A stretch of 64,000 bases of DNA, taken from the NCBI GenBank assembly GCA_019308995.1, contig JAFDHD010000005.1:1-64000 (forward strand), read 5' to 3'. The notes below the pieces were generated by a model. That model did not search any database. It was given only the letters and a program-made list of their open reading frames with translations, and was not told the DNA's origin. Shown piece after piece: positions 13,289 through 40,582 of this stretch. The first letter of the stretch is position 1. Each line of letters starts with the position of its first letter. Origin of the DNA: Deltaproteobacteria bacterium (lineage in GTDB: Bacteria > Desulfobacterota > Desulfarculia > Adiutricales > JAFDHD01). The position numbers and the translations under genes are program-made.

Positions 13289-13597
13289 TCAGCTATATGT
13301 GCCCAGCGTGTCCACCAGATGGCGGATCAAACGAAAATTTTCAACCTGAGCGCCGCGCGGCGTGACATCTGCGCTTCCTAACAAAACGCCCCTGAACGGT
13401 TTGATACGTTTGATCAGGCCCGATATTTCAGCCTTCACAAAATCCGTATCCTGGCTGATAAAGGTGGTTGGGTCAATACCGCCAATGACCGTCTTTTCTG
13501 AAAGATTGGCCGCGGCTATATCTAAGGGAAAATCGCCGGTGGGAGGCGGAGGGACATAGGTTGATAAAGATACATGCTTCCAATCGGCTCTAATTTG
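13289..13597 (-). pseudogene. C-terminal remnant of a second URO-D-family methyltransferase
   Basis: Translating the minus strand between the two neighbours gives 102 open codons ending at TGA (13289-13291). The product contains VIGGIDPTTFIS and LLGSADVTPRGAQVENF, the C-terminal signature of URO-D-type methyltransferases. There is no start codon with a ribosome binding site: a TAG in this frame lies immediately upstream (13598-13600), within the last codons of the corrinoid gene. About two thirds of the expected gene is missing. It is best read as the leftover of a deletion between a corrinoid gene and its methyltransferase. Confidence 0.75.
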
Positions 13598-14228
13598 CTA
13601 AGCCAATTAGCTCTTTAACCTTCTTAACGGCGCTTGCAGCGTCAGGGGCATAGCCATCAGCACCGATCTGCTCCGTATAAGCTGCCGTTACCGGAGCTCC
13701 ACCAAACACCACCTTGACATGCTCATGCAAACCCGCATCGTTCAGCGCCTGTATAACTTCCGCGGCAGAAGGCATGGTGGTGGTCAACAAGGCCGACATC
13801 CCCAGGATCTGGGGCTCTTCCCGCCTGACCGCCTCCAAGAAATCTTCCACTGAAACATCCGTTCCCAGGTCAACAATCTCAAAGCCGGCTCCTTCCAGCA
13901 TCAGCCCCACTAAATTTTTTCCGATGTCGTGAAGATCACCTTTTAGCGTACCCAATACCACTTTACCGGTGGGTTCTATGCCGGTTTCGGCTAACAGCGG
14001 TCTCAAGATCCCGATTCCGGTTTTCATTGCCCGGGCTGATATCAGCATTTCAGGAACGAAAAAATCTCCGGCCTCAAAGCGTTTTCCAACTTCATCCATT
14101 GCTGCGATAAGGCCTTCTTTCAGAATGACTTCAGGAATTATCTCAGCCTCCAGAGCCTGCTTCACTCCATCTTCAGCACCTGGGGCATCCCCCTCAAGAA
14201 CTGCTTTGTAGATTGTGTTCAGGACCAT
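13590..14228 (-). CDS. Corrinoid (B12-binding) methyltransferase protein, MtbC/MtaC-like
   Basis: 212 residues. It has an N-terminal four-helix cap (about 1-85) and a Rossmann-like B12 domain with the base-off motif DLHDIGKN (Asp 98, His 100, Gly 103 approx.), where His is the lower axial ligand of cobalt, plus later GG-containing loops. The family shuttles methyl groups between a substrate-specific methyltransferase and an acceptor. No MtaB/MttB-type partner is visible in the window. The only partners seen are the downstream URO-D remnant and the intact URO-D-family gene. Confidence 0.92.
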   Translation of the reverse strand: MVLNTIYKAVLEGDAPGAEDGVKQALEAEIIPEVILKEGLIAAMDEVGKRFEAGDFFVPEMLISARAMKTGIGILRPLLAETGIEPTGKVVLGTLKGDLHDIGKNLVGLMLEGAGFEIVDLGTDVSVEDFLEAVRREEPQILGMSALLTTTMPSAAEVIQALNDAGLHEHVKVVFGGAPVTAAYTEQIGADGYAPDAASAVKKVKELIGLAN

Positions 14229-14487
14229 TAATACTCCCTCCCGTCAGGAATGATTTTTCATTTACCCGCTGAATATAGCAAGTGAATTTAACACAACCTT
14301 ATAGCGAATTCCACTAAATCTATAATCCAAGCAAGTATTGACCATGAAAGGACATCGGTCAGGCTGAGCCAGACCAGGCGGGGGATTCAGATTAGATTTA
14401 AGAAAATGAGGGAAAGGGAAATGGTCACGCAAGAAAGCAGACCTTAAGGCAAGGCATATCTTTCAGATTCCCTTTACATCGGATATC

Positions 14488-15276
14488 TTACAGACGTTCA
14501 TCTGGTTCATACCATTCAACTAGCGGCGGCTCAAGCTCAAGCGCTCCAATGACAATCTTTTCCAGTTTGTCATGACCTTTTATCAAAAGGATGGACCCTA
14601 TTTTTTGTGCGGCTTTGTGTGCACCTTCATCCTCTGCCTTGTTGAGAAAAACAAAGCGTCTGGCCCGGGAGGGGCTGCCTTTCATGAGCCCCTGATGGTG
14701 CAGGATAATCCTGGCCACAGAATCTTCTGTGACCGGCTTTCCCGGCGGCAGACCGGTAATTTGTGAATAAAGCCGCGACCTGAAGACCCATTGATCCTCC
14801 AGGGGTTTACCCACAGCGTCCAGGCCGATCATTGCTACCACCCATCCGGAGCAGGTTGGAATCACCGGCTCGTGCGATGCGGGCGCTTTAAGAGGTTTGC
14901 GGGCGGCCCCATCGGCCTCCACCAGAATCCACCTAAACAGACCGGTTTCCCAAAGCTGGTTGATAACGTAAGGCTTGAACCCGGTCAGCTTCCCCTGGGA
15001 GGCGAGATACCCACAGGCGGCCGTGATATGAGCACACTCCAGCTTGAATTTTTTGGCCTGCTTTACAACCTCTTCGAGATCGGCCGAAATTATTATGCAG
15101 GGGGATTGCTCCTTGGATGGCTTATAAATCTTGGTGGTGGTAGTGGTGAGAACGGTCTCGCCCGCGTCCGCGAGCTCTCTGGCGAGGCGGAACATAAGCG
15201 TCGTCTTGCCACCGGCGCCGACCAGACTTATCACTCCGCCACCCTTAAGCAGCAGCTTTTCGCGAAGGGACGCCAT
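14488..15276 (-). CDS. yqeC: YqeC-like selenium-dependent hydroxylase accessory protein
   Basis: 262 residues. A P-loop at about 21-27 (GAGGKTT) is followed by LTTTTTKI and the conserved VEADGAARKPLKAPA segment, all typical of YqeC. YqeC genes co-occur with YqeB and with selenium-dependent molybdenum hydroxylases. The biochemical step is not established. It starts next to the stop of yqeB (no gap), so the two are co-translated. Confidence 0.88.
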   Translation of the reverse strand: MASLREKLLLKGGGVISLVGAGGKTTLMFRLARELADAGETVLTTTTTKIYKPSKEQSPCIIISADLEEVVKQAKKFKLECAHITAACGYLASQGKLTGFKPYVINQLWETGLFRWILVEADGAARKPLKAPASHEPVIPTCSGWVVAMIGLDAVGKPLEDQWVFRSRLYSQITGLPPGKPVTEDSVARIILHHQGLMKGSPSRARRFVFLNKAEDEGAHKAAQKIGSILLIKGHDKLEKIVIGALELEPPLVEWYEPDERL

Positions 15277-16095
15277 TTACGACTCGTTGAACACCCTGAG
15301 GATGGCCTCCAGCACGCCCCCGCCAATGGCCCGCGCCTTATCTGAAATAGTGCCGCAGTAACTCACATCCCCCCTGGGGTCAATATCCCCGATTTTAAGG
15401 CCTCTGTTGACCTGCACCCCGGAGGCAATCAATCCTCGAATCACGCCGCCGATCCTGGCTCTGACTTCATTTCCGTTCACGTCACCGACGATCTCATCGG
15501 GCTCGACCTGATCACCGATTTGAGGGAACGACCTGAAGAGGCCATTTGAAGGGGCTCTCAAAACCCTCTCTGCTGAAGACCCCAGGATCTCTCCGGGCAC
15601 CCCTGTATTGGATTCTGCCTGGCCGGAAAGAATAACTCGGCCGAGATTGTGACCCCGGTTGGTTTCAATAACCATATGCACATCCTGTCCCGCAGTAAAA
15701 CCCGGTCCCAGACCTATCACCAAAGAGGCTTCCCTCATAGTGGTTCCAAGATTTCGTTTGGCCAGGATAGCATCAACCACCACGTCAGGACCCATTTCAT
15801 CAATGGTCTCCCAGCGGGGATCAACAATAACCGGAATCTGCGTCTGTTCCCAGGCGCGGGCGATTTCTTTTACGCCCGCGGCTCTAACCGCCTCCACCCC
15901 CTCAACCGTCTTCAGCCCTTCATGAAGAGCTTCACAAAAGGAGACCTCCCTTCTCACAGCCAGGGGCCGGGGGATCTCCATCATGAAGAGTTGACGTATT
16001 CTTGCCTGGTAGAGCCGCCAGGCGACCGCGCTTGCCATCTCGCCCGCGCCCTTCAGGCCGACAATCAACTCATTTAAAGCTTTTCCAGGCTTCAT
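15277..16095 (-). CDS. yqeB: YqeB-like selenium-dependent molybdenum cofactor protein (EF2563 family)
   Basis: 272 residues. GLKGAGEMASAVAWRLYQA at the N-terminus is a Rossmann-type nucleotide loop. GTTMREASLVIGLGPGFTAG and GHNLGRVILSGQAESNTG are hallmark segments of the YqeB family. The role is inferred from genome context: delivery or insertion of selenium into the molybdenum cofactor of hydroxylases. It is coupled to yqeC and lies 15 bases after the molybdopterin-binding gene. Confidence 0.88.
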   Translation of the reverse strand: MKPGKALNELIVGLKGAGEMASAVAWRLYQARIRQLFMMEIPRPLAVRREVSFCEALHEGLKTVEGVEAVRAAGVKEIARAWEQTQIPVIVDPRWETIDEMGPDVVVDAILAKRNLGTTMREASLVIGLGPGFTAGQDVHMVIETNRGHNLGRVILSGQAESNTGVPGEILGSSAERVLRAPSNGLFRSFPQIGDQVEPDEIVGDVNGNEVRARIGGVIRGLIASGVQVNRGLKIGDIDPRGDVSYCGTISDKARAIGGGVLEAILRVFNES

Positions 16096-16110
16096 ATTCC
16101 CCTCTTAACA

Positions 16111-17130
16111 TCATTTTCCAAAAGGACAGACCGGATAACGACAGTCCTGGCAATTCAAGCACAAACCACCGTGGCCCATCTCGGCGATCTCATGCCTGGT
16201 GATCTGCCTCCCGGCCAAAACCCGCGGCAGGATAAGATCATAAACCGTTGTTTCGTAGTAATAGACGCAAGCTGGTAAACCCAGAATCGGTATCTCGCCA
16301 AGAATGGCATAGAGAAACATGGCTCCAGGCAGGATGGGACTGCCGTAGCAGATGATCTTCGCTCCAGCCTCCCTGACACCCCTTCGCGTCACATCATCCG
16401 GGTCAACAGAGAGCCCTCCTGTAGCCAGGATCAGCTCACAGCCAAGTTCTTTCAATTCCAGGATGGCCTGTGAGATAGCCCTGGCATCATCAGGAACAAT
16501 AATCTTTTTCATGAATTGACAGCCGTAATCAATGACTTTCCTGGCCACATACCGGTCGAATTCATCCTTGATCAGACCCTGGTAAATCTCTGAACCGGTA
16601 ACCACGCCGCCAACGCGCATTTTCCGGTACGGGAGCATCTCAAGGATGGGCTTGTACCGCTCGGCCAGATTCTCAACCTTCTCGATTTTCTTACGCGAGA
16701 TGGTCAGGGGAATGATCCGCGTAGCGGCAACCGTCTGATCCTTTCTGCCAGGATAGTTCGTCTTGAGGGTCGAAACGATAATATTACCCAGCTTGTTTAT
16801 CCTGAGAAGCCCCGCCACATTCACTTTCAGCAAGCCGTCTTTGAGGCTGACGATATTCGATTTGCCTTCCACCGGTTCGGTCCATCTTAAGTTATGGCCG
16901 GAGATGGCGCGGGCAATACGGAGAGCCGCTTCGTCTTCATGCAGCTGACCTTCTGGGAGATCAAGCACGTAGAGGTATTTCTTTCCGAGCTTGAGCAGCT
17001 CGGGCACGTCATCCCCCGTAACAATATGCCCTTTCTTGAAACCTACTCCTTTGAATTTTCCAGGAATAATCCGGGTTATATCGTGAGCTAAAACTGTTCC
17101 GACCGCATTTTCAACCTTTATCTTTTTCAT
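16111..17130 (-). CDS. Molybdopterin-binding protein (MoeA/MoaB-like domain) with C-terminal Cys cluster
   Basis: 339 residues. The centre has GGVVTGSEIYQG, ILATGGLSVDPDDVT and PILPGAMFLYAILGEIPILG, which match the MoCF-binding fold that recognises molybdopterin. The C-terminus ends in CLNCQDCRYPVCPFGK, a four-Cys pattern suited to an Fe-S cluster or zinc. Such proteins accompany YqeB/YqeC and molybdenum hydroxylases. It is the first gene of the minus-strand maturation operon and diverges from xdhC. Confidence 0.85.
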   Translation of the reverse strand: MKKIKVENAVGTVLAHDITRIIPGKFKGVGFKKGHIVTGDDVPELLKLGKKYLYVLDLPEGQLHEDEAALRIARAISGHNLRWTEPVEGKSNIVSLKDGLLKVNVAGLLRINKLGNIIVSTLKTNYPGRKDQTVAATRIIPLTISRKKIEKVENLAERYKPILEMLPYRKMRVGGVVTGSEIYQGLIKDEFDRYVARKVIDYGCQFMKKIIVPDDARAISQAILELKELGCELILATGGLSVDPDDVTRRGVREAGAKIICYGSPILPGAMFLYAILGEIPILGLPACVYYYETTVYDLILPRVLAGRQITRHEIAEMGHGGLCLNCQDCRYPVCPFGK

Positions 17131-20979: not shown

Positions 20980-22702
20980 CTCATCTTTACCCACAAGTTT
21001 TTCTTTGTCACTCTTTCTTACAACTCGTTGAAATTACATAATAATTTACCATGAAAAAAAATCTAGACTTTTCAAGGTAAATATGGCATACCATATTATG
21101 TGAGTGCCAGATTCGTTCATACCGAAAAAATGCAATCCTTTTACCCTAATAGTGGTAATGGATTGAATGCTAAGCCGGGTCATGCCACAGAGGATATAGC
21201 AGAATGGGCCATGCGGCAATACAAAACCCTGGACCTCCCCGACGCTCGTTTGGAAAGAAGGTGTCTTAGGACTGTATTGACTTTGGCCAACAAACCTCAA
21301 GATAGTATTAACCAAGCTTCTGAGAACTGGGCGCAAGCCAAAGGTGCCTATCGATTTATTGAAAATGATCGAGTCACATCTGAATCCCTCCAGGCACCCA
21401 TTGGCGATGCGACCGCCGATGCTTGCGCCAATCAAGACACTATTATTGCGGTTCAGGATACCACCACCCTGAGCTTTGGCAGTGCACGCCAGGCTAAGGG
21501 ATTGGGAACGATTAACGACTCCTCTTCCGCCAGGGGCATGTTTTATCACCCTGTTTTGGCTCTTCGAGAAGACGGCCTCGCTCTCGGCCTTCTTGATCAG
21601 CAGCACTGGTGCCGGGAACCGGAAGTCAAACATAAAGCTAAAGACAGGTACAAACGATCCATCAATGAAAAAGAAAGCGGCAAATGGCTTAAAGGTGTGG
21701 CGGCTGCTAATTTGGCCTTGAAAACCAACCTGTCTAAAGATAAGCGCCCTAAAATCATTCATGTTTTTGACCGTGAAGGTGACGTGCACGAAGTCTTCCA
21801 ACTCATTGAGACGCTGCAAGACGGGGCCGTGATCCGTAGCGCCCATAACCGCCGGGTGGTCACTGACCATGGCCACGCTGATTACGCCCACGACTTGGTC
21901 CGTAAGGCTCCGCTTCTTGGTGAAATCACCATTGATGTCCCCCGAAAACCAGGCCAGAAAAAACGAAAAGCCACCCTTCAGCTTCGGGCCGTAAGAGTGA
22001 CTTTGACTCCAAAAAAACACAAACATCCCGACCGTTATCCCATCACTCTGACCCTGGTTGAAGTCCGGGAGATTATACCGCCAACCAAAACCACACCTCT
22101 TCACTGGCTGTTGTGGTCCAACGAGACCGTTCATGATCTCAATGGGGCTGGACGAATCATGCATATTTACACTATGCGCTGGAAGATTGAAGACCTTTTC
22201 TTGACCCTTAAACAAGGGTGTCGGATCGAGAAAGTTCAATTTGAAACCTCGGAACGCCTGGCCAAAGTCGTCTCATTACTTGCACCCATCGCCTTACGTA
22301 TCCTCCAATGCCGGGACTTGGCCCGGCTGGAACCCGAGGCACCAGGCACCGTGATTCTCAGCGAAGATGAGTGGAAAACTTTGTGGGCTTATATCCATAA
22401 AAAAACGCCTGCAGAGGGTCAATCTCCGCCAAGTTTAAGGCAAACCGTTTTATGGATCGGCCGCCTAGGGGGCCATCTGGGCCGAAAGTCAGACGGTATG
22501 CCAGGGGTAAAAACCTTATGGCTAGGCCTTAAGGACCTGACCATCATGACGATAGGGTACAAAATAGCTCAAAGCTAAAGCCAAAAATATTTTCTATTTA
22601 AATTCCTTGGTAAATCCTCTATATTCAAACACCGATATTGCTTCTATTTGCCTACTCCCTTACCCTTACATCCATTTTTTAACTCTTGTGGGTAAAGATG
22701 AG
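20980..22702 (+). mobile_element. IS4-type insertion sequence (1723 bp) with intact ends
   Basis: Perfect 18-bp terminal inverted repeats (CTCATCTTTACCCACAAG at 20980-20997 and its complement at 22685-22702) bracket one full-length transposase gene. The 8-bp direct repeat CGCAAGGG on both sides marks the insertion. Undamaged repeats, identical target copies and an open transposase frame point to a recent, possibly still mobile copy. No passenger gene is present. Confidence 0.9.
21100..22578 (+). CDS. IS4 family DDE transposase
   Basis: Up to 492 residues from GTG 21100; ATG at 21130 (482 residues) is an equally possible start, and neither has a clear ribosome binding site. The N-terminal region resembles the Tn5/IS50-type DNA-binding domain (ALDARLERRCLRT-like, WAQAKGAYRFIEND). 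Catalytic residues are visible: Asp in VQDTTTLS, Asp in VFDREGD, and the Glu in the IS4 Y-(2)-R-(3)-E-(6)-K signature YTMRWKIEDLFLTLK. A long antisense frame over this gene is a shadow. Confidence 0.93.
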   Translation: MSARFVHTEKMQSFYPNSGNGLNAKPGHATEDIAEWAMRQYKTLDLPDARLERRCLRTVLTLANKPQDSINQASENWAQAKGAYRFIENDRVTSESLQAPIGDATADACANQDTIIAVQDTTTLSFGSARQAKGLGTINDSSSARGMFYHPVLALREDGLALGLLDQQHWCREPEVKHKAKDRYKRSINEKESGKWLKGVAAANLALKTNLSKDKRPKIIHVFDREGDVHEVFQLIETLQDGAVIRSAHNRRVVTDHGHADYAHDLVRKAPLLGEITIDVPRKPGQKKRKATLQLRAVRVTLTPKKHKHPDRYPITLTLVEVREIIPPTKTTPLHWLLWSNETVHDLNGAGRIMHIYTMRWKIEDLFLTLKQGCRIEKVQFETSERLAKVVSLLAPIALRILQCRDLARLEPEAPGTVILSEDEWKTLWAYIHKKTPAEGQSPPSLRQTVLWIGRLGGHLGRKSDGMPGVKTLWLGLKDLTIMTIGYKIAQS

Positions 22703-31028: not shown

Positions 31029-31375
31029 AAGTCCTCCGGGTTACGGGCCGGAGTTGAGCACGGCGTCACACCGTCCCAGGAGCCTTGCACCAGGATGCAG
31101 GGCTCAAAAAAGTTATAAAATCTAGGGACTTGACCGCCGGGCTGCCGCATGCTGCATCGGGCAGAGTCCTTCCGCCATTCCGGGCAGATAAATTGAACGA
31201 TCTGCTGGCCCACCGCGGGATGAAGCCGGGTTGTATATAATTCCATTATCCATTATAATACATTATTCTCTGAAGGAAGGTTGTCACTCTCACCAAAAAA
31301 AAGAAAGACTTGCAGCAATTTTCACCCATCAGGCGGCAGGGCCTTGAAGCCCGAAGCAGCGATAGAGGAGAGGAG
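31029..31375 (+). other. Leader of the Hdr-type operon
   Basis: 347 bases between the QueG-like gene and the NuoF-like gene. Apart from the candidate promoter at 31231-31259 (listed separately) and the long purine-rich ribosome binding site before 31376, I see no gene or clear hairpin terminator. Confidence 0.5.
31231..31259 (+). promoter_or_regulatory. Candidate promoter of the Hdr-type operon
   Basis: TTGTAT at 31231-31236, a 17-base spacer and a perfect TATAAT at 31254-31259. The start codon of the NuoF-like gene is about 117 bases downstream. Confidence 0.5.
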
Positions 31376-33163
31376 ATGAAGGCTTATCGTTTTCACGCCC
31401 TCATTTGTGGGTGCACCACATGTCGCTCCCTGGGGAGTCTTGAGGTCAAGAAGGCCCTTGAGGCTGAATTGGCCAAACAAGGGCTTGCCGAGGAGGTCAA
31501 GGTTGGGGAAGTTGGTTGTATTGGCTACTGCACCGCCTCCCCCATCATGCTCGTTTACCCTGGAGGGCTGTATTACCAGAAGCTGACCCCTGAAGACATC
31601 CCTGAATTGGTTAGTGAACACTTTCTTAAGGGCCGGCCTGTAGAACGCTTCTTTTATCAGGAACCGAAAAAGAAGGAATTCATTCCGGAGTTGGCCAAGA
31701 TCCCCTTTTTCGCCAACCAGCGCCTCGTGGTCTTGCGCAACCGGGGCCTTATCAATACCGACCGGATTGATGAATATATCGCTCAGGACGGGTACGCCGC
31801 GGCAGGCAAAGCCCTCCTGGAGATGACCCCCCAGGAAATCATCGAAGAAATCAAGGCCTCCGGCCTCAGGGAACGCGACGGGACCGGGTACCCCACCGGT
31901 TTGAAGCTGGAGTTCGGTTACAAGTCCAACCCGGAAGTCAAGTATATCGTTTGCACCGCCGGCGAGGGTGATCTTGGGGCCTTCATGGATCGCTCGATTC
32001 TGGAATCCAACCCGCATGCCATCATCGAAGGCCTGATCATCGCCGCCAGGGCCGTGGGCGCTCATCATGGTTATATTTATTGCCAGGAGGAATATTCCAT
32101 GGCCATTGCCAGGCTCAACATCGCCATGGCCCAGGCCACTGATTACGGACTTCTGGGCGAGGACATCCTGGAGTCTGGCTATGATTTTGACCTCCAGGTC
32201 CGGGAAGGCGCGGGCATCTTTTTAAGCTCCGAGGAGTCGGCCATGATCGCCTTGATCGAGGGCCGATCCGAGATGACTCAGCCGGAAACGCCCACCCTCT
32301 CGGAGTCAGATATTCTCGGCCATCCCACCATCACCAGCAATGTGGAGACTTATGCCAATTTGCCTCCGGTGATTCGGCGCGGTTCGGAGTGGTTCGCATC
32401 CATTGGCACGGAAAAGAGCAAGGGGACCAAGGTCTTTGCCTTGACCGGCGATGTTTTTCACAAGGGTCTGGTTGAGGTGCCCATGGGCACGAAGCTCAAG
32501 ACCCTGATTTACAACATCGGCGGAGGCATCCCCAGACAGAGGAAGCTCAAAGCCGTCCAGCTCGGCGGGCCCTCGAGCGGCTGCATCCCGGCCGAGCTTC
32601 TTGACCTGCCGTGCGACTACGAATCCGTGACTGAGGTTGGCGCCATCATGGGCGCGGGCGGGCTGATTGTCATGGACGATGACACCTGCATGGTGGATCT
32701 GGCCCGGTTTTATATGGAGCACGTTCAGAGGAAGTCCGATGATAAATGTCCTCTCTGCCAGGAAGGCACCAGGCGGATGCTTGAAATCCTGGAAAAAATC
32801 TGCCAGGGCCAGGGCGAGGTCGAAGACCTCAACACCCTTGAGTCCCTGAGTATCGCTGTCAGAAGGTGCGCTACCTGCGTCCAGGGTAAAATCGGACTCA
32901 ACCCCGTGTATTCCACGCTCAAATACTTCCGGGACGAGTACATGACGCACATCCTTGAGAAGCGCTGCCCGGCCAAACGCTGCCAGAACTTGGTGGAGTT
33001 CGTGGTTGATGAGGAAAGGTGCAGGCAGTGCGGGGCCTGTTATCCGGTCTGTCCGATGGGAGCCGTGGCCTGGGAGGAAGGTCAGCCGGCGCGCATTGAC
33101 CGTGATAAGTGCACCCGGTGCCTGGCCTGCATATCCGCTTGTGAGTTTTACGCCATTGACTAA
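31376..33163 (+). CDS. NuoE-NuoF-like fusion, NAD(P)H-oxidising flavoprotein subunit with ferredoxin tail
   Basis: 595 residues from ATG 31376, preceded by GAGGAGAGGAG. Domains in order: thioredoxin-like [2Fe-2S] domain (Cys pairs in CGCTTC and GCIGYC); FMN/NAD-binding NuoF core (REGAGIFLSSEESAMIALIEG) with the SLBB domain; the [4Fe-4S] motif CPLCQEGTRRM; and two ferredoxin clusters at the C-terminus (CRQCGACYPVCP, CTRCLACISACE). Proteins of this type bring in electrons from NADH or release them to NAD in HydABC, FlxA-like and BamH-like complexes. First gene of the apparent 9-kb operon. Confidence 0.92.
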   Translation: MKAYRFHALICGCTTCRSLGSLEVKKALEAELAKQGLAEEVKVGEVGCIGYCTASPIMLVYPGGLYYQKLTPEDIPELVSEHFLKGRPVERFFYQEPKKKEFIPELAKIPFFANQRLVVLRNRGLINTDRIDEYIAQDGYAAAGKALLEMTPQEIIEEIKASGLRERDGTGYPTGLKLEFGYKSNPEVKYIVCTAGEGDLGAFMDRSILESNPHAIIEGLIIAARAVGAHHGYIYCQEEYSMAIARLNIAMAQATDYGLLGEDILESGYDFDLQVREGAGIFLSSEESAMIALIEGRSEMTQPETPTLSESDILGHPTITSNVETYANLPPVIRRGSEWFASIGTEKSKGTKVFALTGDVFHKGLVEVPMGTKLKTLIYNIGGGIPRQRKLKAVQLGGPSSGCIPAELLDLPCDYESVTEVGAIMGAGGLIVMDDDTCMVDLARFYMEHVQRKSDDKCPLCQEGTRRMLEILEKICQGQGEVEDLNTLESLSIAVRRCATCVQGKIGLNPVYSTLKYFRDEYMTHILEKRCPAKRCQNLVEFVVDEERCRQCGACYPVCPMGAVAWEEGQPARIDRDKCTRCLACISACEFYAID

Positions 33164-33488: not shown

Positions 33489-35474
33489 ATTCCTCATAAA
33501 ATTGGTGTTTATGTCTGCCATTGCGGCACAAATATCGCAAGTAAGGTTGACTGCGCCGAAGTGGCGCGGTTCGCCTCAGGTTTAAAAAATGTCGTCATCG
33601 CCCGGGACTACCAGTTCATGTGCTCGGACCCCGGTCAGGACATGATCATAAGTGATATTAATGAGCTGGGCCTGAACCGCGTCGTGGTCGCCTCCTGCTC
33701 GCCCCAACTTCATGAGAAGACCTTCCAGAACGCCTGCCAGAACGCCGGACTCAACCCTTATCTGTTTCAGATGGCCTGCATTCGGGAGCATTGTTCCTGG
33801 GTGATCGAGGATCCGGTTGAGGCCACCGAAAAGGCCATGCACCTCGTGACCGCCGCGGTGAATCGGGTTGATCAGCACCATGAGCTGTTTGCCCCGGAGA
33901 TTCAGGTGCGTCCGGGAATCATGGTGGTCGGGGCGGGCATCGCCGGTATTCAGGCGGCGCTGGATATCGCCGATGCCAGGCAGAAGGTCTATCTGGTGGA
34001 AAAGGCCCCGTCCATCGGCGGGCATATGGCCCAGTTCGACAAGACTTTTCCGACCCTGGACTGTGCGGCCTGCATTTCCACGCCCAAGATGGTGGCCGTG
34101 GCTCAAAACCCGTATATTGAAATGCTCACCTACAGCGAGGTCATCGAGGTCACGGGATACATCGGCGATTACCTGGTGAAAGTTCGCCGCAAGCCCCGCT
34201 ATGTCAATGATGATGTCTGTACAGGATGCGGCTTGTGTATTGACAAGTGCCCGGTCAAGGTGCCCAGTGAGTTTGACGAGCTGCTGGGGACGCGCAAGGC
34301 GATTTACCGGTATACGCCTCAGTCGGTGCCGCTAACGCCTGTCATTGACCCTGAGCATTGCCGTTACTTAACCAAAGGCAAGGGCCGGGTTTGCGAGCAG
34401 CTTTGCCCCGCGCAGGCCATTGATTTCACCCAGGAAGAAACAGAACTGACTATCCCGGTGGGGTCCATTATCCTGGCCACCGGTTATGACCTCTTCGACC
34501 CGACTCCCTTATGGCAGTATGGTTTCAACCGCTTTGACGAAGTCTATACCGGCCTGCAGTTTGAGCGCCTGAACAGCCCCGTCGGCCCCTCCGGCGGGGA
34601 AATCATCATGAAAAACGGGAACCCTCCAGAGGGCGTGGCCATCCTGCACTGCGTTGGCAGCCGCGATCAGAATTACCACGAATATTGCTCTCGAGTTTGC
34701 TGCATGTACGCTCTCAAGTATGCTCACCTCCTCCGGGAAAAGGTCGGTCCGGACGTGCCGATTTATAATTTCTACATTGACCTGCGCTGCTTTGGCAAAG
34801 GCTACGAGGAATTTTACCACCGCGTCCAGGAAAAGGGGATCGTCTTCATCAGGGGACGTCCGGCCCAAGTCACCGATCAGGCGCTGACGCCTGAAGAAGA
34901 AGGCAAGCTCATCGTCATCTCAGAAGATACCCTGCTTGGAGAAATGCTGCGCGTTCCGGTGGACATGGTTATCTTATGTACCGCCATGGAACCGTCTCGG
35001 GAGGCGGCCGAAACGGCACGAATCTTCGGCGTCAGCCAGGGGCAGGATGGATTCTTCCTGGAAGAGCACCCCAAGCTGGGGCCGATCACCACCACCACTG
35101 ATGGTATCTTCCTGGCCGGCGCCTGTCAGGGACCCAAAGATATTCCAGACTCCGTCTCGCACGCTTCCGGCGCCGCGGCCAAGGCCCTGGCCCTTGCCAC
35201 CCGAGGCACGGTCACCGTCTCTCCGGCCACGGCCTGGATAGACCCGGACATCTGCTCCGGCTGCCTGACATGCCGGGAGCTTTGCGTTTACTCGGCCATT
35301 GAATTCGACGAGTACAGGGGTGTGTGCGTCGTCAATGAGACGGTCTGCAAGGGATGCGGAAGCTGTGCCGCCTTCTGCCCCAGTAACGCGGCCCAGATCA
35401 AGCATTTTACCGAAAAGCAGATTTTCGCCGAGATTGAGGGGCTCCTGGACAGGGTCTCGTCACAATCGGCTTGA
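33489..35474 (+). CDS. hdrA: HdrA, FAD/Fe-S subunit of a heterodisulfide-reductase-like complex (probable ATT start)
   Basis: 661 residues if translation begins at ATT 33489, eight bases after AAGGAG. The nearest usual start (GTG 33561) would remove the conserved HdrA N-terminus IGVYVCHCGTNIA, which is encoded in frame upstream of it. A TAG lies just before the ribosome binding site, so no ATG is available. Domains: N-terminal Cys region (also ASCSPQLHEKTF), FAD loop VVGAGIAGIQAAL (about 146), LDCAACISTPKM cluster, ferredoxin clusters (CTGCGLCIDKCP, CRYL...CEQLCP), TrxR-like part, C-terminal clusters CSGCLTCRELC and CKGCGSCAAFCP. FAD here is the bifurcation centre in known HdrA. Confidence 0.9.
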   Translation: MPHKIGVYVCHCGTNIASKVDCAEVARFASGLKNVVIARDYQFMCSDPGQDMIISDINELGLNRVVVASCSPQLHEKTFQNACQNAGLNPYLFQMACIREHCSWVIEDPVEATEKAMHLVTAAVNRVDQHHELFAPEIQVRPGIMVVGAGIAGIQAALDIADARQKVYLVEKAPSIGGHMAQFDKTFPTLDCAACISTPKMVAVAQNPYIEMLTYSEVIEVTGYIGDYLVKVRRKPRYVNDDVCTGCGLCIDKCPVKVPSEFDELLGTRKAIYRYTPQSVPLTPVIDPEHCRYLTKGKGRVCEQLCPAQAIDFTQEETELTIPVGSIILATGYDLFDPTPLWQYGFNRFDEVYTGLQFERLNSPVGPSGGEIIMKNGNPPEGVAILHCVGSRDQNYHEYCSRVCCMYALKYAHLLREKVGPDVPIYNFYIDLRCFGKGYEEFYHRVQEKGIVFIRGRPAQVTDQALTPEEEGKLIVISEDTLLGEMLRVPVDMVILCTAMEPSREAAETARIFGVSQGQDGFFLEEHPKLGPITTTTDGIFLAGACQGPKDIPDSVSHASGAAAKALALATRGTVTVSPATAWIDPDICSGCLTCRELCVYSAIEFDEYRGVCVVNETVCKGCGSCAAFCPSNAAQIKHFTEKQIFAEIEGLLDRVSSQSA

Positions 35475-35481
35475 AACATCC

Positions 35482-35943
35482 ATGGAACGCGCCGCTATCG
35501 AAGGCAGGTTAAAGGAGGGAACCATCGCTGAATTTGAGCCGACAATCATCGCCTTTGTCTGTAACTGGTGCACTTACACCGCGGCCGATTTGGCCGGTAC
35601 CTCGCGCATGACCCAGCCGGGCAACGTCCGTCTGATCCGTGTCAACTGCACCGGCATGGTGGACCCTAAATACGTCATCAAGGCTTTGCTGGCCGGGGCC
35701 GACGCCGTCCTGATCAGCGGATGTCATCCCGGCGACTGCCATTACGTCAATGGCAACTACAAGGCGCGCAGACGGGTCAAACTGCTTCAGGAAATACTGA
35801 GCAGATTCGGCATCGAAAAAAACAGGGTCAAAATGACATGGATTGGCGCCAGCGAGGGTAACATATTCGCCGACACAGTCAAGTCACTCGTCACGGAAGT
35901 CAAAACGCTAGGACCAAACCAGGCCCGGAACCTCATGATCTGA
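35482..35943 (+). CDS. MvhD-like [2Fe-2S] electron-transfer subunit
   Basis: 153 residues from ATG 35482. The motif FVCNWCTY (Cys 27, 30), NCTGM (Cys 56) and SGCHPGDCHY (Cys 81, 86) are the five conserved Cys of MvhD/FlxD/BamF proteins, which hand electrons to HdrA. It starts 8 bases after hdrA stops. The longer frame from 35299 overlaps hdrA and is not used. Confidence 0.93.
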   Translation: MERAAIEGRLKEGTIAEFEPTIIAFVCNWCTYTAADLAGTSRMTQPGNVRLIRVNCTGMVDPKYVIKALLAGADAVLISGCHPGDCHYVNGNYKARRRVKLLQEILSRFGIEKNRVKMTWIGASEGNIFADTVKSLVTEVKTLGPNQARNLMI

Positions 35944-35986: not shown

Positions 35987-37141
35987 ATGGCAAAGATGGC
36001 CAAAATCGCGGTCAAAGACCGCAACCCCGTATCCTCGCTTCAGGAATTTCTAAAAAAGCTGCTCCACGATGAAGAAATAGCAGCCATCCTGGTCCCCCAG
36101 CATCTGCCGCTCAAAAATACGATCATGCCCATGCTGGTGACCGACCCTGGCAAACTCGACCAGGCCGACCCCCTGGCGCCTGTCTTTCCAATCAACGCCG
36201 CCAAAATACTCACCAGACTGACCAGCGCGCCTCTCGAACGGAAGCTGGCCGCGGTCCTTCGTCCGTGCGAAATCCGGGCTTTCATCGAACTAACCAAGCT
36301 CAACCAGGGAAACATGAATGAGGTGCTTATCATCGGGCTGGACTGCCTCGGGGCATATGAAAACGATGATTACTCCCGATTCGTCGCGGCCAGCGAAAAC
36401 GACGGCCTCAAAGCGAGCTTGAGGTTTTTCCGGAACATTCGCGCCGGCCAAGGCACGGCCGAGCAGGACTTCAATATCGCCAGAGCGTGTCAGGCCTGCG
36501 AACGCCCGTCCCCGGACAAGGCAGACCTGGCCGTCGGTCTGATCGGGGTGAACATGGAAGACTGGCTGCCGGTCACGGCCAACACCGCCTGGGGCGAGGA
36601 AATCCTGAACAGGCTCGACCTGCCCGAAGCTGAAAAGCCGGAGGAACATGAGCGGGCCTTAGCCGAACTCGTTCAGGAGCGCCTGGCTTTTCGGGATAAG
36701 ATGTTTGAGGAGACCCGCCAGGAAACGTCGAGTCTGGAGAAGCTGACAGAGTACCTCGCCGGGTGCGTCAACTGTTACAACTGTCGGGTCGCCTGCCCGG
36801 TTTGCTACTGCCGGGAGTGCGTCTTTCTCACCGATGTCTTTGACCACAAGCCCTGGCAGTATCTCGGATGGGCCGAGAGAAAAGGCGCGCTCAAGATGCC
36901 CACGGACACGCTTTTTTATCATCTGACCCGGCTGACTCACATAAGCCTGACCTGTGTCGGCTGCGGGCAGTGCTCCCGGGCCTGCCCAAACCATATCCCG
37001 GTCATGGAGCTCTTTCGGTTGATCGCCGCCGACGTCCAGGAAGCCTTTGGATACGAACCCGGGCGCGATCCGGACGAACCGCAGCCCCTGTCTGTTTTCA
37101 AGGAGGACGAATTTGGGGATGTCACAAAAGAAGCAGACTGA
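35987..37141 (+). CDS. FrhB/FdhB-like Fe-S oxidoreductase subunit
   Basis: 384 residues. The N-terminal 240 residues resemble the FrhB/FdhB C-terminal domain that often binds FAD (LRPCEIRAFIEL at about 92-103, EVLIIGLDCLGAYE). Then come two ferredoxin clusters: a Cys-rich block at 260-278 (CVNCYNCRVACPVCYCREC) with more Cys than a normal cluster, and CVGCGQCSRACP at 323-334. It could link the complex to formate dehydrogenase, ferredoxin or F420-like carriers. Fifteen-base spacing and strand place it in the hdr operon. Confidence 0.82.
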   Translation: MAKMAKIAVKDRNPVSSLQEFLKKLLHDEEIAAILVPQHLPLKNTIMPMLVTDPGKLDQADPLAPVFPINAAKILTRLTSAPLERKLAAVLRPCEIRAFIELTKLNQGNMNEVLIIGLDCLGAYENDDYSRFVAASENDGLKASLRFFRNIRAGQGTAEQDFNIARACQACERPSPDKADLAVGLIGVNMEDWLPVTANTAWGEEILNRLDLPEAEKPEEHERALAELVQERLAFRDKMFEETRQETSSLEKLTEYLAGCVNCYNCRVACPVCYCRECVFLTDVFDHKPWQYLGWAERKGALKMPTDTLFYHLTRLTHISLTCVGCGQCSRACPNHIPVMELFRLIAADVQEAFGYEPGRDPDEPQPLSVFKEDEFGDVTKEAD

Positions 37142-37165: not shown

Positions 37166-40100
37166 ATGAATTATACCGCTTTGGTCGTCGGTGCGGGCGT
37201 GGCCGGCGTTCGGGCCGCTCTGGACCTGGCTGAAGCCGGAAACAAGGTGGCGCTTATTGATAAGAGCCAGGGTCTGGGAGGCGTGCTGATCCAGCTGGAC
37301 CGGCAGTTCCCCAGCGACCGCTGCGGCATGTGCCAGATGCTCCCCCTCGTGGAACGCGATGCGTGTTCTCAATACTGCCTGCGCAAGGGGCTGTATCACG
37401 AAAATATTGATCTCATGCTTTCCACCGAACTGACCGCGGTCGAGGGCGAGCCGGGTAAACTCCACGTCACCCTGCGGAAAAAATCAACCTTTGTCAATCC
37501 CAACCTCTGTATCGGCTGCGGCGAGTGTGCTGCGGTCTGCCCGGTGCAGGCGCCCGACGAGTTCAACGCCGGGCTGACCTTGCGCCCGGCCGTGCATCTG
37601 CCTGCGCCTTATACGATTCCCAACCATTATGTGGTGGACCTGGACAGCTGCCAGAGATGCTGGGCCTGTTTCAAGGCCTGCCCCACCGGAGCCATAGACT
37701 TCAGGTTTGAGGCCCGCTCTGATTTCAAGATTCTCATGGCCGACCCCGACCCCTCGACCAAGGACAACCTCGAGGCGTGGCTGAAGGACGAAATTTTTCC
37801 TCTGGATGCGGCCGGAACCGGGGCCGAAGCCCTGGAGAAGATGGCGCAGGATGGCAGTTACCGGCTGGTGCTTCTGGATATGGATCTGCCTGACATGCCT
37901 TTAGAGGAGGCCCTCGACCGCATGCAGGAACAGCATCCCGGGCTGCCAGTGGTCCTGATGGCCGCGCCGGGCGAAATCCAGGCAGCCCAAAAGCTTTTGG
38001 CTCATGGCGCCCTGGAGGTCCTGGCCAAGCCTTTGGAAGAAGAGGTCCTGGTCCCCTGGCTGGACAAGCTCTATCTGAAGCTGGAATCTGACGAGGAGTT
38101 CGGCCTGGAGGTCGGGTCCGTGATCCTGGCCGCTGGATTCGAATGCTTCAAGCCTTCGGAAGCCGCCAATCTTTACGGCTACGGCGCTCTGCCTGGAGTG
38201 GTCACGGCCGTGGAGTTCGAGCGCATGGCCAGCGGTACCGGCCCGCACCGCGGCGAACTCCTGATCCCCGGGAGTTCGAAACCGGCGCGCCGCATTGCCT
38301 GGCTGCAGTGCGTCGGGTCCAGGGAACCGCGGATTGAAGCCGATTTCTGCTCATCCGTGTGCTGCATGTTTTCGATCAAGGAGGCGGTCATGGCCAAAGA
38401 GATCACCCAGGGCCGGGCCGAGGCCGTTATTTTTTACATGGACATGCGCACCTTTGGCAAGGATTTCGAGCGCTACCGGGACCGGGCGGAAACAGAATTC
38501 GGCGTGAAATTCAGGCGAACCCGTGTTCACTCCGTCGCCTCGGCTGAGGGTTCGGAAGGGCTGCAGCTTGATTTTCTGGATGCAGCAGGGAAGAGGCGGA
38601 GGGAGATATTCGATCTGGTCATCCTGGCCGTGGGGGCCAGGCCGGCGGCGGACATGGAGGATCTTCTGGAAATAACCGGCGCCAAGGCCGGCCGCTGGGG
38701 GTTCTGTGAGACGTCCTCCTTTGCCTCGGCCCAGACCGGCCGGCTGGGCATCTTTGCCGCTGGCACTATCACCGGGCCAAAGGACATTTCAGAGTCGGTC
38801 ATTCAGGCCGGGGCGGCGGCTATGGAAGCCTCCCGCCTGGTTATCGGCCATGAGGAGCTTACGGCAGAGGCGGCGGAGCCGGTTTACCGGGACGTATCCC
38901 TGGAAATGCCCCGGACCCTCGTGGCCCTGTGCACCTCCTGCCGCACCCTCGAAAAAGGCGTTGATCTGGACGCGCTTCGGAAAAAACTCTCCGGGCTTCA
39001 CTCGGTCCAAAGCGTGATTCATGTTAAGAACATGTGCACCCAGATGGGCTGGTGGCAGCTGGAGAAGGAGGTCAGGAACTCCCAGGCCAACCGAATCCTG
39101 CTCGGCGCGTGTCAGCCTTTTGTGTACGAGCCGAAGATGAAGGAGTTGGGCCGGAAGATCGAGCTCAACCCGTCCCTCATGAGCGCGGTTGACATCTTTA
39201 CCCCGACTTTTCCGGGATTACTGGCAGATGCGAAGGCCAGGGAACAGGAGATATTCGCCACCCTGAACACAGGCCTGGTCAGGCTTCTCGGGGCAAACCC
39301 CGCACCGGTTCCTTCCATCGCGGTGACCCCGAGGGCGCTGGTGGTCGGCGGGGGCGCAGCCGGTTTGACCGCGGCGCTCTCCCTGGCCGAGCAAGGGCTC
39401 GAGGTGGACCTGGTGGAAAAGGATAAAGCCCTGGGCGGCGTGGCCCTGACCCTGCAGTACACTCTGAACGGGGATTCACCTCAGGAGTACCTCCTGGGCC
39501 TGATCGAGCAGATAAAGAAGCATCCCAAGATCAGCGTCTTCCTGAGCACCCGGGTGGTTGCCTCCAGGGGAAGCGTCGGGCGGTTCGTAACGACCGTGAA
39601 GACCGAAGACGGGGAATCCGTGGACCTGAAGCACGGGGCCGTCATTCTGGCCACCGGCGGCCGCCAGGGGAGCGTCACATCGTATGGCTACGGCCAGCAC
39701 GAGACAGTGATAACCCAGGCAGAACTGGAACAGGAGCTTACCTTCGGCAACCTCGACCCCACAACCCTGACCGCCGTGGTCATGATCCAGTGCGTAGAGT
39801 CGCGCCAGGAGCCGCACTTGTATTGCAGCCGGGTCTGCTGCCTCGCCGCCCTGAAAAACGCCCTGTTTCTCAAGAAAAAAAATCCCAATCTCCCCATCTT
39901 TATATTTTACAGGGACATGATGGCCTATGGCCTTTTTGAGGCTTATTACACCAGGGCGCGGCAGGCCGGTGTCATCTTCATCCCATACGACGTCGGGGAT
40001 AAACCCCGCGCTAATTTTGAAGGCGACCGCCCGCTCGTTACCGCCAGGGACCCGGTTCTGGACATGGACATACAGATTCGCCCGGATTTGCTTATCCTGG

Positions 40101-40582
40101 CCCCGCCGATCGTGCCTCACGATGTTCATGATCTGGCTGAAATCTTTGGGGTGGAACTCAACCAGGACGGTTTTTTTCAAGAGGCGGAGTCCAAGTGGCG
40201 GCCGGTGGAATGCCTGAAGCAGGGGATATTCCTATGCGGGACGGCCCTTTCTCCCAGGTCTGTCAGCGAGAGCATTGCCTCGGCTGAAGCTGCGGCCGGC
40301 CGGGCTTTAAGCATCCTCAGCAAAGAGATGGTCGCGGGCAGCGCCGTGACAGCGGTGGTTCGCTTCAACCTCTGCTCCCGGTGCGAACTCTGCATCTCCG
40401 TGTGCCCGTATGGCGCCAGAAGCCTGGACCCTGAGGATGAGAAAATCGTGGTGGATGAGCTGTTATGCCAGGGCTGCGGCTCCTGCGCCGCGGTCTGCCC
40501 GAACAGCGCCACGGTGCTGAGGGGTTTTCATGACAGGGAGGTCATGGGGGCCATTGACGCTGCTTTGGAAGGATTTATATAA
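37166..40582 (+). CDS. Tandem HdrA fusion with an inserted response-regulator receiver domain (1138 aa)
   Basis: Domains in order: FAD loop VVGAGVAGVRAAL (6-19); Cys cluster (DRCGMC, Cys 53/56, 67, 71); two ferredoxin clusters (CIGCGECAAVCP 115-126, CQRCWACFKACP 162-173); a receiver domain at about 187-305; rest of the first TrxR-like domain (306-565) with CSSVCCM; an HdrA-type N-terminal domain (582-710: CTSC, GACQPF); second FAD domain with VVGGGAAGLTAAL (726-738); C-terminal clusters CSRCELCISVCP and CQGCGSCAAVCP. In the receiver, Asp 193/195, the phosphoacceptor Asp 238 (LVLLDMDLPDM) and Lys 288 (VLAKPL) are kept, while the Thr/Ser position is Ala 266. Last gene of the operon. Confidence 0.9.
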   Translation: MNYTALVVGAGVAGVRAALDLAEAGNKVALIDKSQGLGGVLIQLDRQFPSDRCGMCQMLPLVERDACSQYCLRKGLYHENIDLMLSTELTAVEGEPGKLHVTLRKKSTFVNPNLCIGCGECAAVCPVQAPDEFNAGLTLRPAVHLPAPYTIPNHYVVDLDSCQRCWACFKACPTGAIDFRFEARSDFKILMADPDPSTKDNLEAWLKDEIFPLDAAGTGAEALEKMAQDGSYRLVLLDMDLPDMPLEEALDRMQEQHPGLPVVLMAAPGEIQAAQKLLAHGALEVLAKPLEEEVLVPWLDKLYLKLESDEEFGLEVGSVILAAGFECFKPSEAANLYGYGALPGVVTAVEFERMASGTGPHRGELLIPGSSKPARRIAWLQCVGSREPRIEADFCSSVCCMFSIKEAVMAKEITQGRAEAVIFYMDMRTFGKDFERYRDRAETEFGVKFRRTRVHSVASAEGSEGLQLDFLDAAGKRRREIFDLVILAVGARPAADMEDLLEITGAKAGRWGFCETSSFASAQTGRLGIFAAGTITGPKDISESVIQAGAAAMEASRLVIGHEELTAEAAEPVYRDVSLEMPRTLVALCTSCRTLEKGVDLDALRKKLSGLHSVQSVIHVKNMCTQMGWWQLEKEVRNSQANRILLGACQPFVYEPKMKELGRKIELNPSLMSAVDIFTPTFPGLLADAKAREQEIFATLNTGLVRLLGANPAPVPSIAVTPRALVVGGGAAGLTAALSLAEQGLEVDLVEKDKALGGVALTLQYTLNGDSPQEYLLGLIEQIKKHPKISVFLSTRVVASRGSVGRFVTTVKTEDGESVDLKHGAVILATGGRQGSVTSYGYGQHETVITQAELEQELTFGNLDPTTLTAVVMIQCVESRQEPHLYCSRVCCLAALKNALFLKKKNPNLPIFIFYRDMMAYGLFEAYYTRARQAGVIFIPYDVGDKPRANFEGDRPLVTARDPVLDMDIQIRPDLLILAPPIVPHDVHDLAEIFGVELNQDGFFQEAESKWRPVECLKQGIFLCGTALSPRSVSESIASAEAAAGRALSILSKEMVAGSAVTAVVRFNLCSRCELCISVCPYGARSLDPEDEKIVVDELLCQGCGSCAAVCPNSATVLRGFHDREVMGAIDAALEGFI

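Follow-up and report, generated by a model that had tools for sequence, protein, structure and literature searches.

A CheY-like receiver inserted in a tandem HdrA: a putative phosphorylation switch of a bifurcating flavoprotein, probably disabled in the lineage studied here

Control of electron-bifurcating enzymes is generally ascribed to the availability of substrates, to the assembly of the complex and to transcription. The gene at 37166..40582 of the window (the whole stretch of 64,000 nucleotides analysed here) raises the question of whether phosphorylation may be another means of control. Its product of 1138 amino acids is a tandem (type II) HdrA with a receiver domain inserted in the first flavin domain, a combination that is not known from earlier descriptions according to the first-pass annotation and of which our literature search likewise found no description. 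That annotation had put forward two options: a histidine kinase could control the redox complex, or the domain could by now have a purely structural role. Our comparison of 39 loci suggests that both options apply, the former by inference to the branch with canonical receivers and the latter to the branch of the window. We consider it probable that the protein descends from a bifurcating flavoprotein under phosphorylation control, and that its own receiver persists as a structural pseudo-receiver.

Architecture of the tandem HdrA and fold of its insert

The gene reads as one uninterrupted frame of 1138 codons, with no internal stops, on the + strand, which also carries the domains and operon genes described below. 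The first part of unit 1 (37166..37711) comprises a FAD (Rossmann) segment with C53 and C56 and an inserted 2x[4Fe-4S] ferredoxin domain (C115-C172). Residues 4-178 match residues 145-309 of HdrA 9sfi (phmmer), and all ten cysteines of this part are invariant in 26 orthologues. The homology to HdrA breaks off at residues 178-182 and picks up again at 308-312, which identifies the receiver as an insertion. It lies after the inner ferredoxin domain and before the returning FAD domain of unit 1 (residues 311-575; 38096..38890), so that the match boundaries agree with the placement given in the first-pass annotation. Unit 2 (38909..40579) consists of a HdrA N-terminal-type domain, a FAD domain and a C-terminal 2x[4Fe-4S] ferredoxin domain (C1070-C1111); homology puts its start near residue 582, as had been proposed. 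Two HdrA-type FAD domains are thus found in one chain, as in type II HdrAs, and the full-length AF2 model matches the HdrA of methanogens.

In the alignment, E352 and K405 of unit 1 correspond to E356 and K409 of the HdrA of M. thermolithotrophicus, and the FAD domain of unit 2 retains E855 and K897, so residues of this type are present in both halves. E352, K405 and K897 are invariant in the 26 orthologues and E855 is found in 24 of them. Since a Glu/Lys pair at the FAD has been proposed as diagnostic of bifurcation (PMC12054007), the product of this gene should be a bifurcating core.

The insert itself (residues 187-305; 37724..38080) is a degenerate CheY-like receiver. Pfam places Response_reg (PF00072) at residues 189-296 with E=1.4e-14 and 54.6 bits (cut-off 30.2), and phmmer matches the segment to the LuxO receiver 5ep0 at 7e-13. 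The first-pass annotation had called a receiver at this place and suggested modelling both the full protein and the segment alone. AF2 gave a receiver fold in both cases, with pLDDT 82.5 and pTM 0.82 for the full protein (input of 22 aligned orthologues) and pLDDT 93.6 for the isolated segment. The full model shows the five beta/alpha repeats of a (beta-alpha)5 fold, with strands at 188-192, 213-216, 232-238, 262-266 and 284-287 and helices at 196-207, 219-228, 246-256, 268-280 and 292-308. With the isolated domain as query, Foldseek gave matches to receivers of a C. thermocellum response regulator, LuxO, NtrC1, Spo0F, NtrX and CheY (TM about 0.73-0.86 to the query). At the level of predicted structure, a CheY-like fold is therefore confirmed.

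The active site is another matter. The orthologue motif VVDDE is aligned with MADPD in the window, and the acidic pocket positions (37742..37750), D-D-E in canonical relatives, read D193-P194-D195. Asp 193 and 195 had been read as a kept acidic pocket; D193 does correspond to the first Asp, but Pro194 takes the place of the second and D195 aligns with the Glu of the relatives. Of the pair of neighbouring acidic residues with which receivers bind metal where beta-1 ends, only one is thus left, and a full pocket is ruled out by the alignment. The remaining assignments stood in the 39-locus comparison: D238, the equivalent of the phosphoacceptor Asp (37877..37879), and the conserved Lys K288 (38027..38029) are kept, and A266 (37961..37963) occupies the position of the lost switch Thr. 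The canonical Tyr that precedes the Lys is V285 in the window. Helix 5 carries a motif specific to the degenerate receivers, WLDK (residues 298-301; 38057..38068), with LDK in 8/8 covered rows of that group and W in 7/8.

Type I, Ia, II and III HdrAs have been described with no mention of a receiver (PMC12054007). The nearest known proteins are type II HdrAs, with two thioredoxin-reductase-like domains (PMC12054007), and the fused HdrA3/HdrA4 of ANME (PMC9012536), which also have two FAD domains per chain and share with the window protein the E/K residues of bifurcation and the clustering with FlpD/MvhD and FrhB/FdhB genes. The receiver after the inner ferredoxin, not mentioned for either of them in those two papers, sets the window protein apart. 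Type III HdrA/HdrL (PMC12054007, PMC2702500) likewise has an extra domain in the FAD-domain loop that contains the ferredoxin; this extra domain is GltD, a catalytic NAD(P)H module, whereas here a signalling module follows the second cluster of the inner ferredoxin. As for the receiver, its fold is shared with NtrC/LuxO-type receivers (5ep0, 3cfy, NtrC1, NtrX), whose complete active site is found in the canonical relatives. Those receivers belong to DNA-binding or AAA+ chains, in contrast to the flavin redox enzyme described here, in which the window copy is catalytically degenerate.

One receiver-bearing family with two regimes of evolution

When whole genomes were searched with the insert plus flanking sequence as query, the insertion turned up in 15 of the 395 genomes from the phylum, among them the window genome, and in 5 out of 98 relatives. 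Scanning named genomes yielded 23 loci, labelled as Desulfobacteraceae/Desulfobacterales, Syntrophobacteraceae, Desulfovibrio or Pseudodesulfovibrio, and Deltaproteobacteria or Proteobacteria. The final set comprises 39 loci, including the window, after removal of two duplicates, and a few species may be counted twice across collections. A frame error that joins separate genes had been named as a possible flaw; we considered it together with other artefacts of assembly or annotation, such as a misread insert. The window assembly is fragmented, but we found nothing in positive support of such an error. The frame is unbroken and the receiver occurs at the identical point in all 39 loci, among them genomes in 1-2 contigs (G329 and G437), which makes this explanation negligible.

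In a tree built without the receiver columns, 26 receiver-bearing rows fall on one side of a branch that separates them from 11 receiver-less tandem HdrAs (SH-aLRT 100), which have a short linker at the junction. The insertion therefore has one apparent origin. Longer HdrAs (1.4-1.5 kaa; L075, L089, L093 and others), which are loose matches to the query, came into question as additional carriers, and the receiver HMM finds no receiver in them. Tandem HdrAs of about 1500 amino acids occur on contig 14 of the window genome (L019:7173-11648) and also in L053, L066, L075, L086 and L091. For the contig 14 copy, the match to the L015 HdrA that carries GltD extends over residues 175-1091 at 45%, and these proteins thus look like tandem HdrAs with a GltD insert.

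The 39 receivers comprise 30 canonical and 9 degenerate ones, the window among the latter. In the canonical group, the residues D, D, E, D, T, Y and K are invariant in 30/30 where covered, the switch Thr in 30/30, and no other part of the protein is as conserved as the receiver, which has a mean pairwise identity of 0.70 as against 0.66, 0.55 and 0.50 in the other parts. The full set is found in none of the nine degenerate receivers. Their second acidic position is P, A, R or G, or a gap in L017; the Thr is replaced by A or I in eight; the equivalent of D238 is G in one and that of K288 is T or H in three. L017, which comes from a sister species and congener of the window organism, has a 48-bp in-frame gap by which beta-1 and the acidic pocket are gone.

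Distances tell the same two regimes apart, the ratio of receiver to rest of unit 1 being 0.77 in canonical pairs and 1.80 in the degenerate clade. In degenerate pairs, dN/dS is 0.29-0.42 in the receiver and 0.06-0.26 in the other parts, values that are rough, with dS near or above 1 in the window pair. Judged from these sequences, constraint on the degenerate receiver is relaxed yet not absent, and its own helix-5 motif suggests a structural role. The five degenerate rows used in the tree form one clade (support 99). Since receivers in general have intact active sites, and on grounds of parsimony more than of the deepest branches among receiver-bearing proteins in the tree, we read the degenerate state as a probable loss rather than an odd ancestral form.

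Operons and linked kinases

In the canonical operons the order is, with variations, [single receiver], HdrA with GltD, FlpD, FrhB-like, tandem HdrA with receiver, HdrC, HdrB, kinase and receiver-kinase. Kinases were scored within 6 kb in those 22 canonical loci for which 5 kb or more of downstream sequence was available. As the first-pass annotation had anticipated in proposing to look for a kinase near homologous operons, 18 of these 22 loci have a co-directional kinase downstream (the exceptions are L024, L028, L035 and L117), whereas no kinase of any kind was found within 6 kb in the 26 loci with receiver-less tandem HdrAs. A downstream kinase was seen in one of seven degenerate loci. These counts are not independent, the loci share descent, and Fisher values overstate their independence.

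A sensor kinase of CxxCH..CxxxCH type is present in 13 of the 22 canonical loci and a receiver-kinase in 15. The sensor kinases often begin with an N-terminal CxxCH and CxxxCH stretch, followed by HAMP, PAS, HisKA and HATPase; the sensor part is a weak match to Mcp40H-20_sensor (24.9 bits, cut-off 27). The stretch may bind c-type heme in the periplasm. Such putative c-heme sensor kinases linked to Hdr operons include L016:4858-7131, L044:14337-16640 and L045:14242-16614, besides others.

The window operon is different. A NuoE/NuoF-type subunit with a C-terminal ferredoxin (31310..33163; Pfam Complex1_51K, NADH_4Fe-4S, 2Fe-2S_thioredx) is likely to be the NADH input, judging from its domains; a NuoEF-type gene is found upstream in the congener L017 as well. 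The next gene (33489..35474) encodes a type I HdrA, the counterpart of the HdrL (HdrA with GltD) of the relatives. It has 64-66% identity to both GltD flanks of the L015 protein and leaves the GltD part of that query (322-803) unmatched, so the insert that defines type III HdrA/HdrL is missing. The partner HdrA of canonical loci is of the HdrL kind, unlike that of the window, and the partner HdrAs of the other degenerate loci are likewise without GltD. Most simply, the NuoEF-type gene would be an alternative NADH input where the GltD insert is missing. A FlpD/MvhD-type electron-transfer subunit (35473..35943; Pfam FlpD, 4.5e-52) and a FrhB/FdhB-type iron-sulfur subunit (35987..37141; Pfam FrhB_FdhB_C, Fer4_8) precede the tandem HdrA. 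No HdrB or HdrC gene is present in the window operon, which therefore does not encode a complete HdrABC; at E <= 1e-10, the window genome has a single HdrB-like match, with 38% identity, on contig 30. A histidine kinase was also looked for in the window operon and none was found. Nor does the window genome (96.5% complete) contain a match to the putative heme-sensor region of the canonical kinase.

The start of the type I HdrA is itself unusual. ATG, GTG or TTG are missing at the homologous start, where ATT (33489-33491) follows a Shine-Dalgarno-like ggaaggag; the same place has ATA in L017 and Met in L014 and L015, and the gene may possibly use a non-AUG start.

A published locus resembles the canonical operons. 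Locus VIII of D. autotrophicum HRM2 has tandem hdrL/hdrA4 with HdrB/HdrC and FdhB (PMC2702500), a gene content like theirs as far as the published description goes. The text on this locus mentions neither a receiver within HdrA4 nor kinase control, and the genes listed in the legend of the figure of Hdr loci in the same paper include a response regulator, a histidine kinase and a CheY-like regulator, with the locus not specified.

A possible mechanism and its competitors

The reading that we prefer would run as follows. The gene product is a soluble tandem HdrA with two FAD sites and with inserted and C-terminal ferredoxin domains, and would be the core of a complex of NuoEF, HdrA, FlpD and FrhB-like subunits that probably carries out NADH-linked flavin-based bifurcation. 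A NtrC-like receiver was apparently inserted once, right after the ferredoxin inside FAD domain 1, in an ancestor of scattered Desulfobacterota-type bacteria. In most descendants it would work as a phosphoacceptor, phosphorylated by the sensor kinase of the same operon, often with a putative periplasmic c-heme, and by the soluble receiver-kinase.

Along the chain, the receiver is the direct neighbour of the inserted ferredoxin domain, to which ferredoxin reduction has been assigned (PMC12054007). The likeliest effect of phosphorylation in canonical members would be a shift of the alpha4/5 face, transmitted to the ferredoxin/FAD interface, that alters ferredoxin docking or the geometry of the branch and thus the exit of electrons. 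If so, a signal sensed outside the membrane would set the electron flow inside without transcription, and a phosphoacceptor in a bifurcating flavoprotein, with co-encoded sensor kinases, would represent a direct switch on anaerobic energy conservation. The window lineage would have lost this control as its operon kinases disappeared and its active-site residues decayed; its NAD(P)H input would have come to differ, with the NuoEF gene in place of the GltD insert, and the receiver, with a new helix-5 motif, would have been retained as a structural pseudo-receiver.

Kinase control of the canonical relatives is favoured by the invariant active site and the operon-encoded kinases, but the same operons also allow a different account. 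NtrC-type genes or single receivers are present in many of the clusters, and in the majority of degenerate loci a divergent kinase-receiver and NtrC pair is all that is found; the kinases may thus act on transcription through such regulators, the HdrA receiver being a structural or docking element in the whole family. We regard this as rather unlikely, given that a domain with no more than a structural role would not be expected to retain the full set of seven residues in every canonical receiver, that the canonical receiver surpasses all other parts of the protein in conservation and the degenerate group shows what lost constraint looks like, and that the kinase pair usually lies directly downstream on the same strand. 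On balance we lean towards direct two-component control of bifurcation in the canonical relatives, with the window protein as a later, switch-disabled form reused structurally.

For the window receiver, the loss of the acidic residue and of the Thr, the operon without a kinase, the relaxed evolution and the deletion in L017 lend better support to a pseudo-receiver, a domain that probably no longer acts as a switch and is structural. As D238 and K288 persist, some residual phosphorylation is possible, and many other histidine kinases are encoded in this genome. A receiver that still works as a phosphoacceptor, supplied with phosphate by a kinase encoded elsewhere or by small phosphodonors, nevertheless appears improbable. 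It would have to do so with Pro194 and Ala266 at two key positions, in a group in which the congener dispenses with beta-1 and the pocket and in which, in other members, the residue corresponding to D238 or to K288 is gone. The natural series of intact, degenerate and beta-1-deleted receivers offers built-in controls for the role of the domain, and the family as a whole supplies testable proteins.

Several other features were noted in these genomes. An ORF of 492 amino acids at 21100-22578 of the window is transposase-like by eye. On contig 8 of the window genome (33798-35756; L022), a HdrA with an in-frame TGA, possibly a selenocysteine, is adjoined by several receiver and kinase genes. Downstream of the receiver-HdrA operon of L035, a receiver is fused to PPDK_N, the ATP-binding domain of pyruvate phosphate dikinase (13368-16403). 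In the canonical operon of L124, HdrB is directly followed by a Usp-receiver-Usp protein (14195-15517), in which a receiver closely related to the one in HdrA (158 bits to the HdrA receiver of L014) sits between two universal-stress domains.
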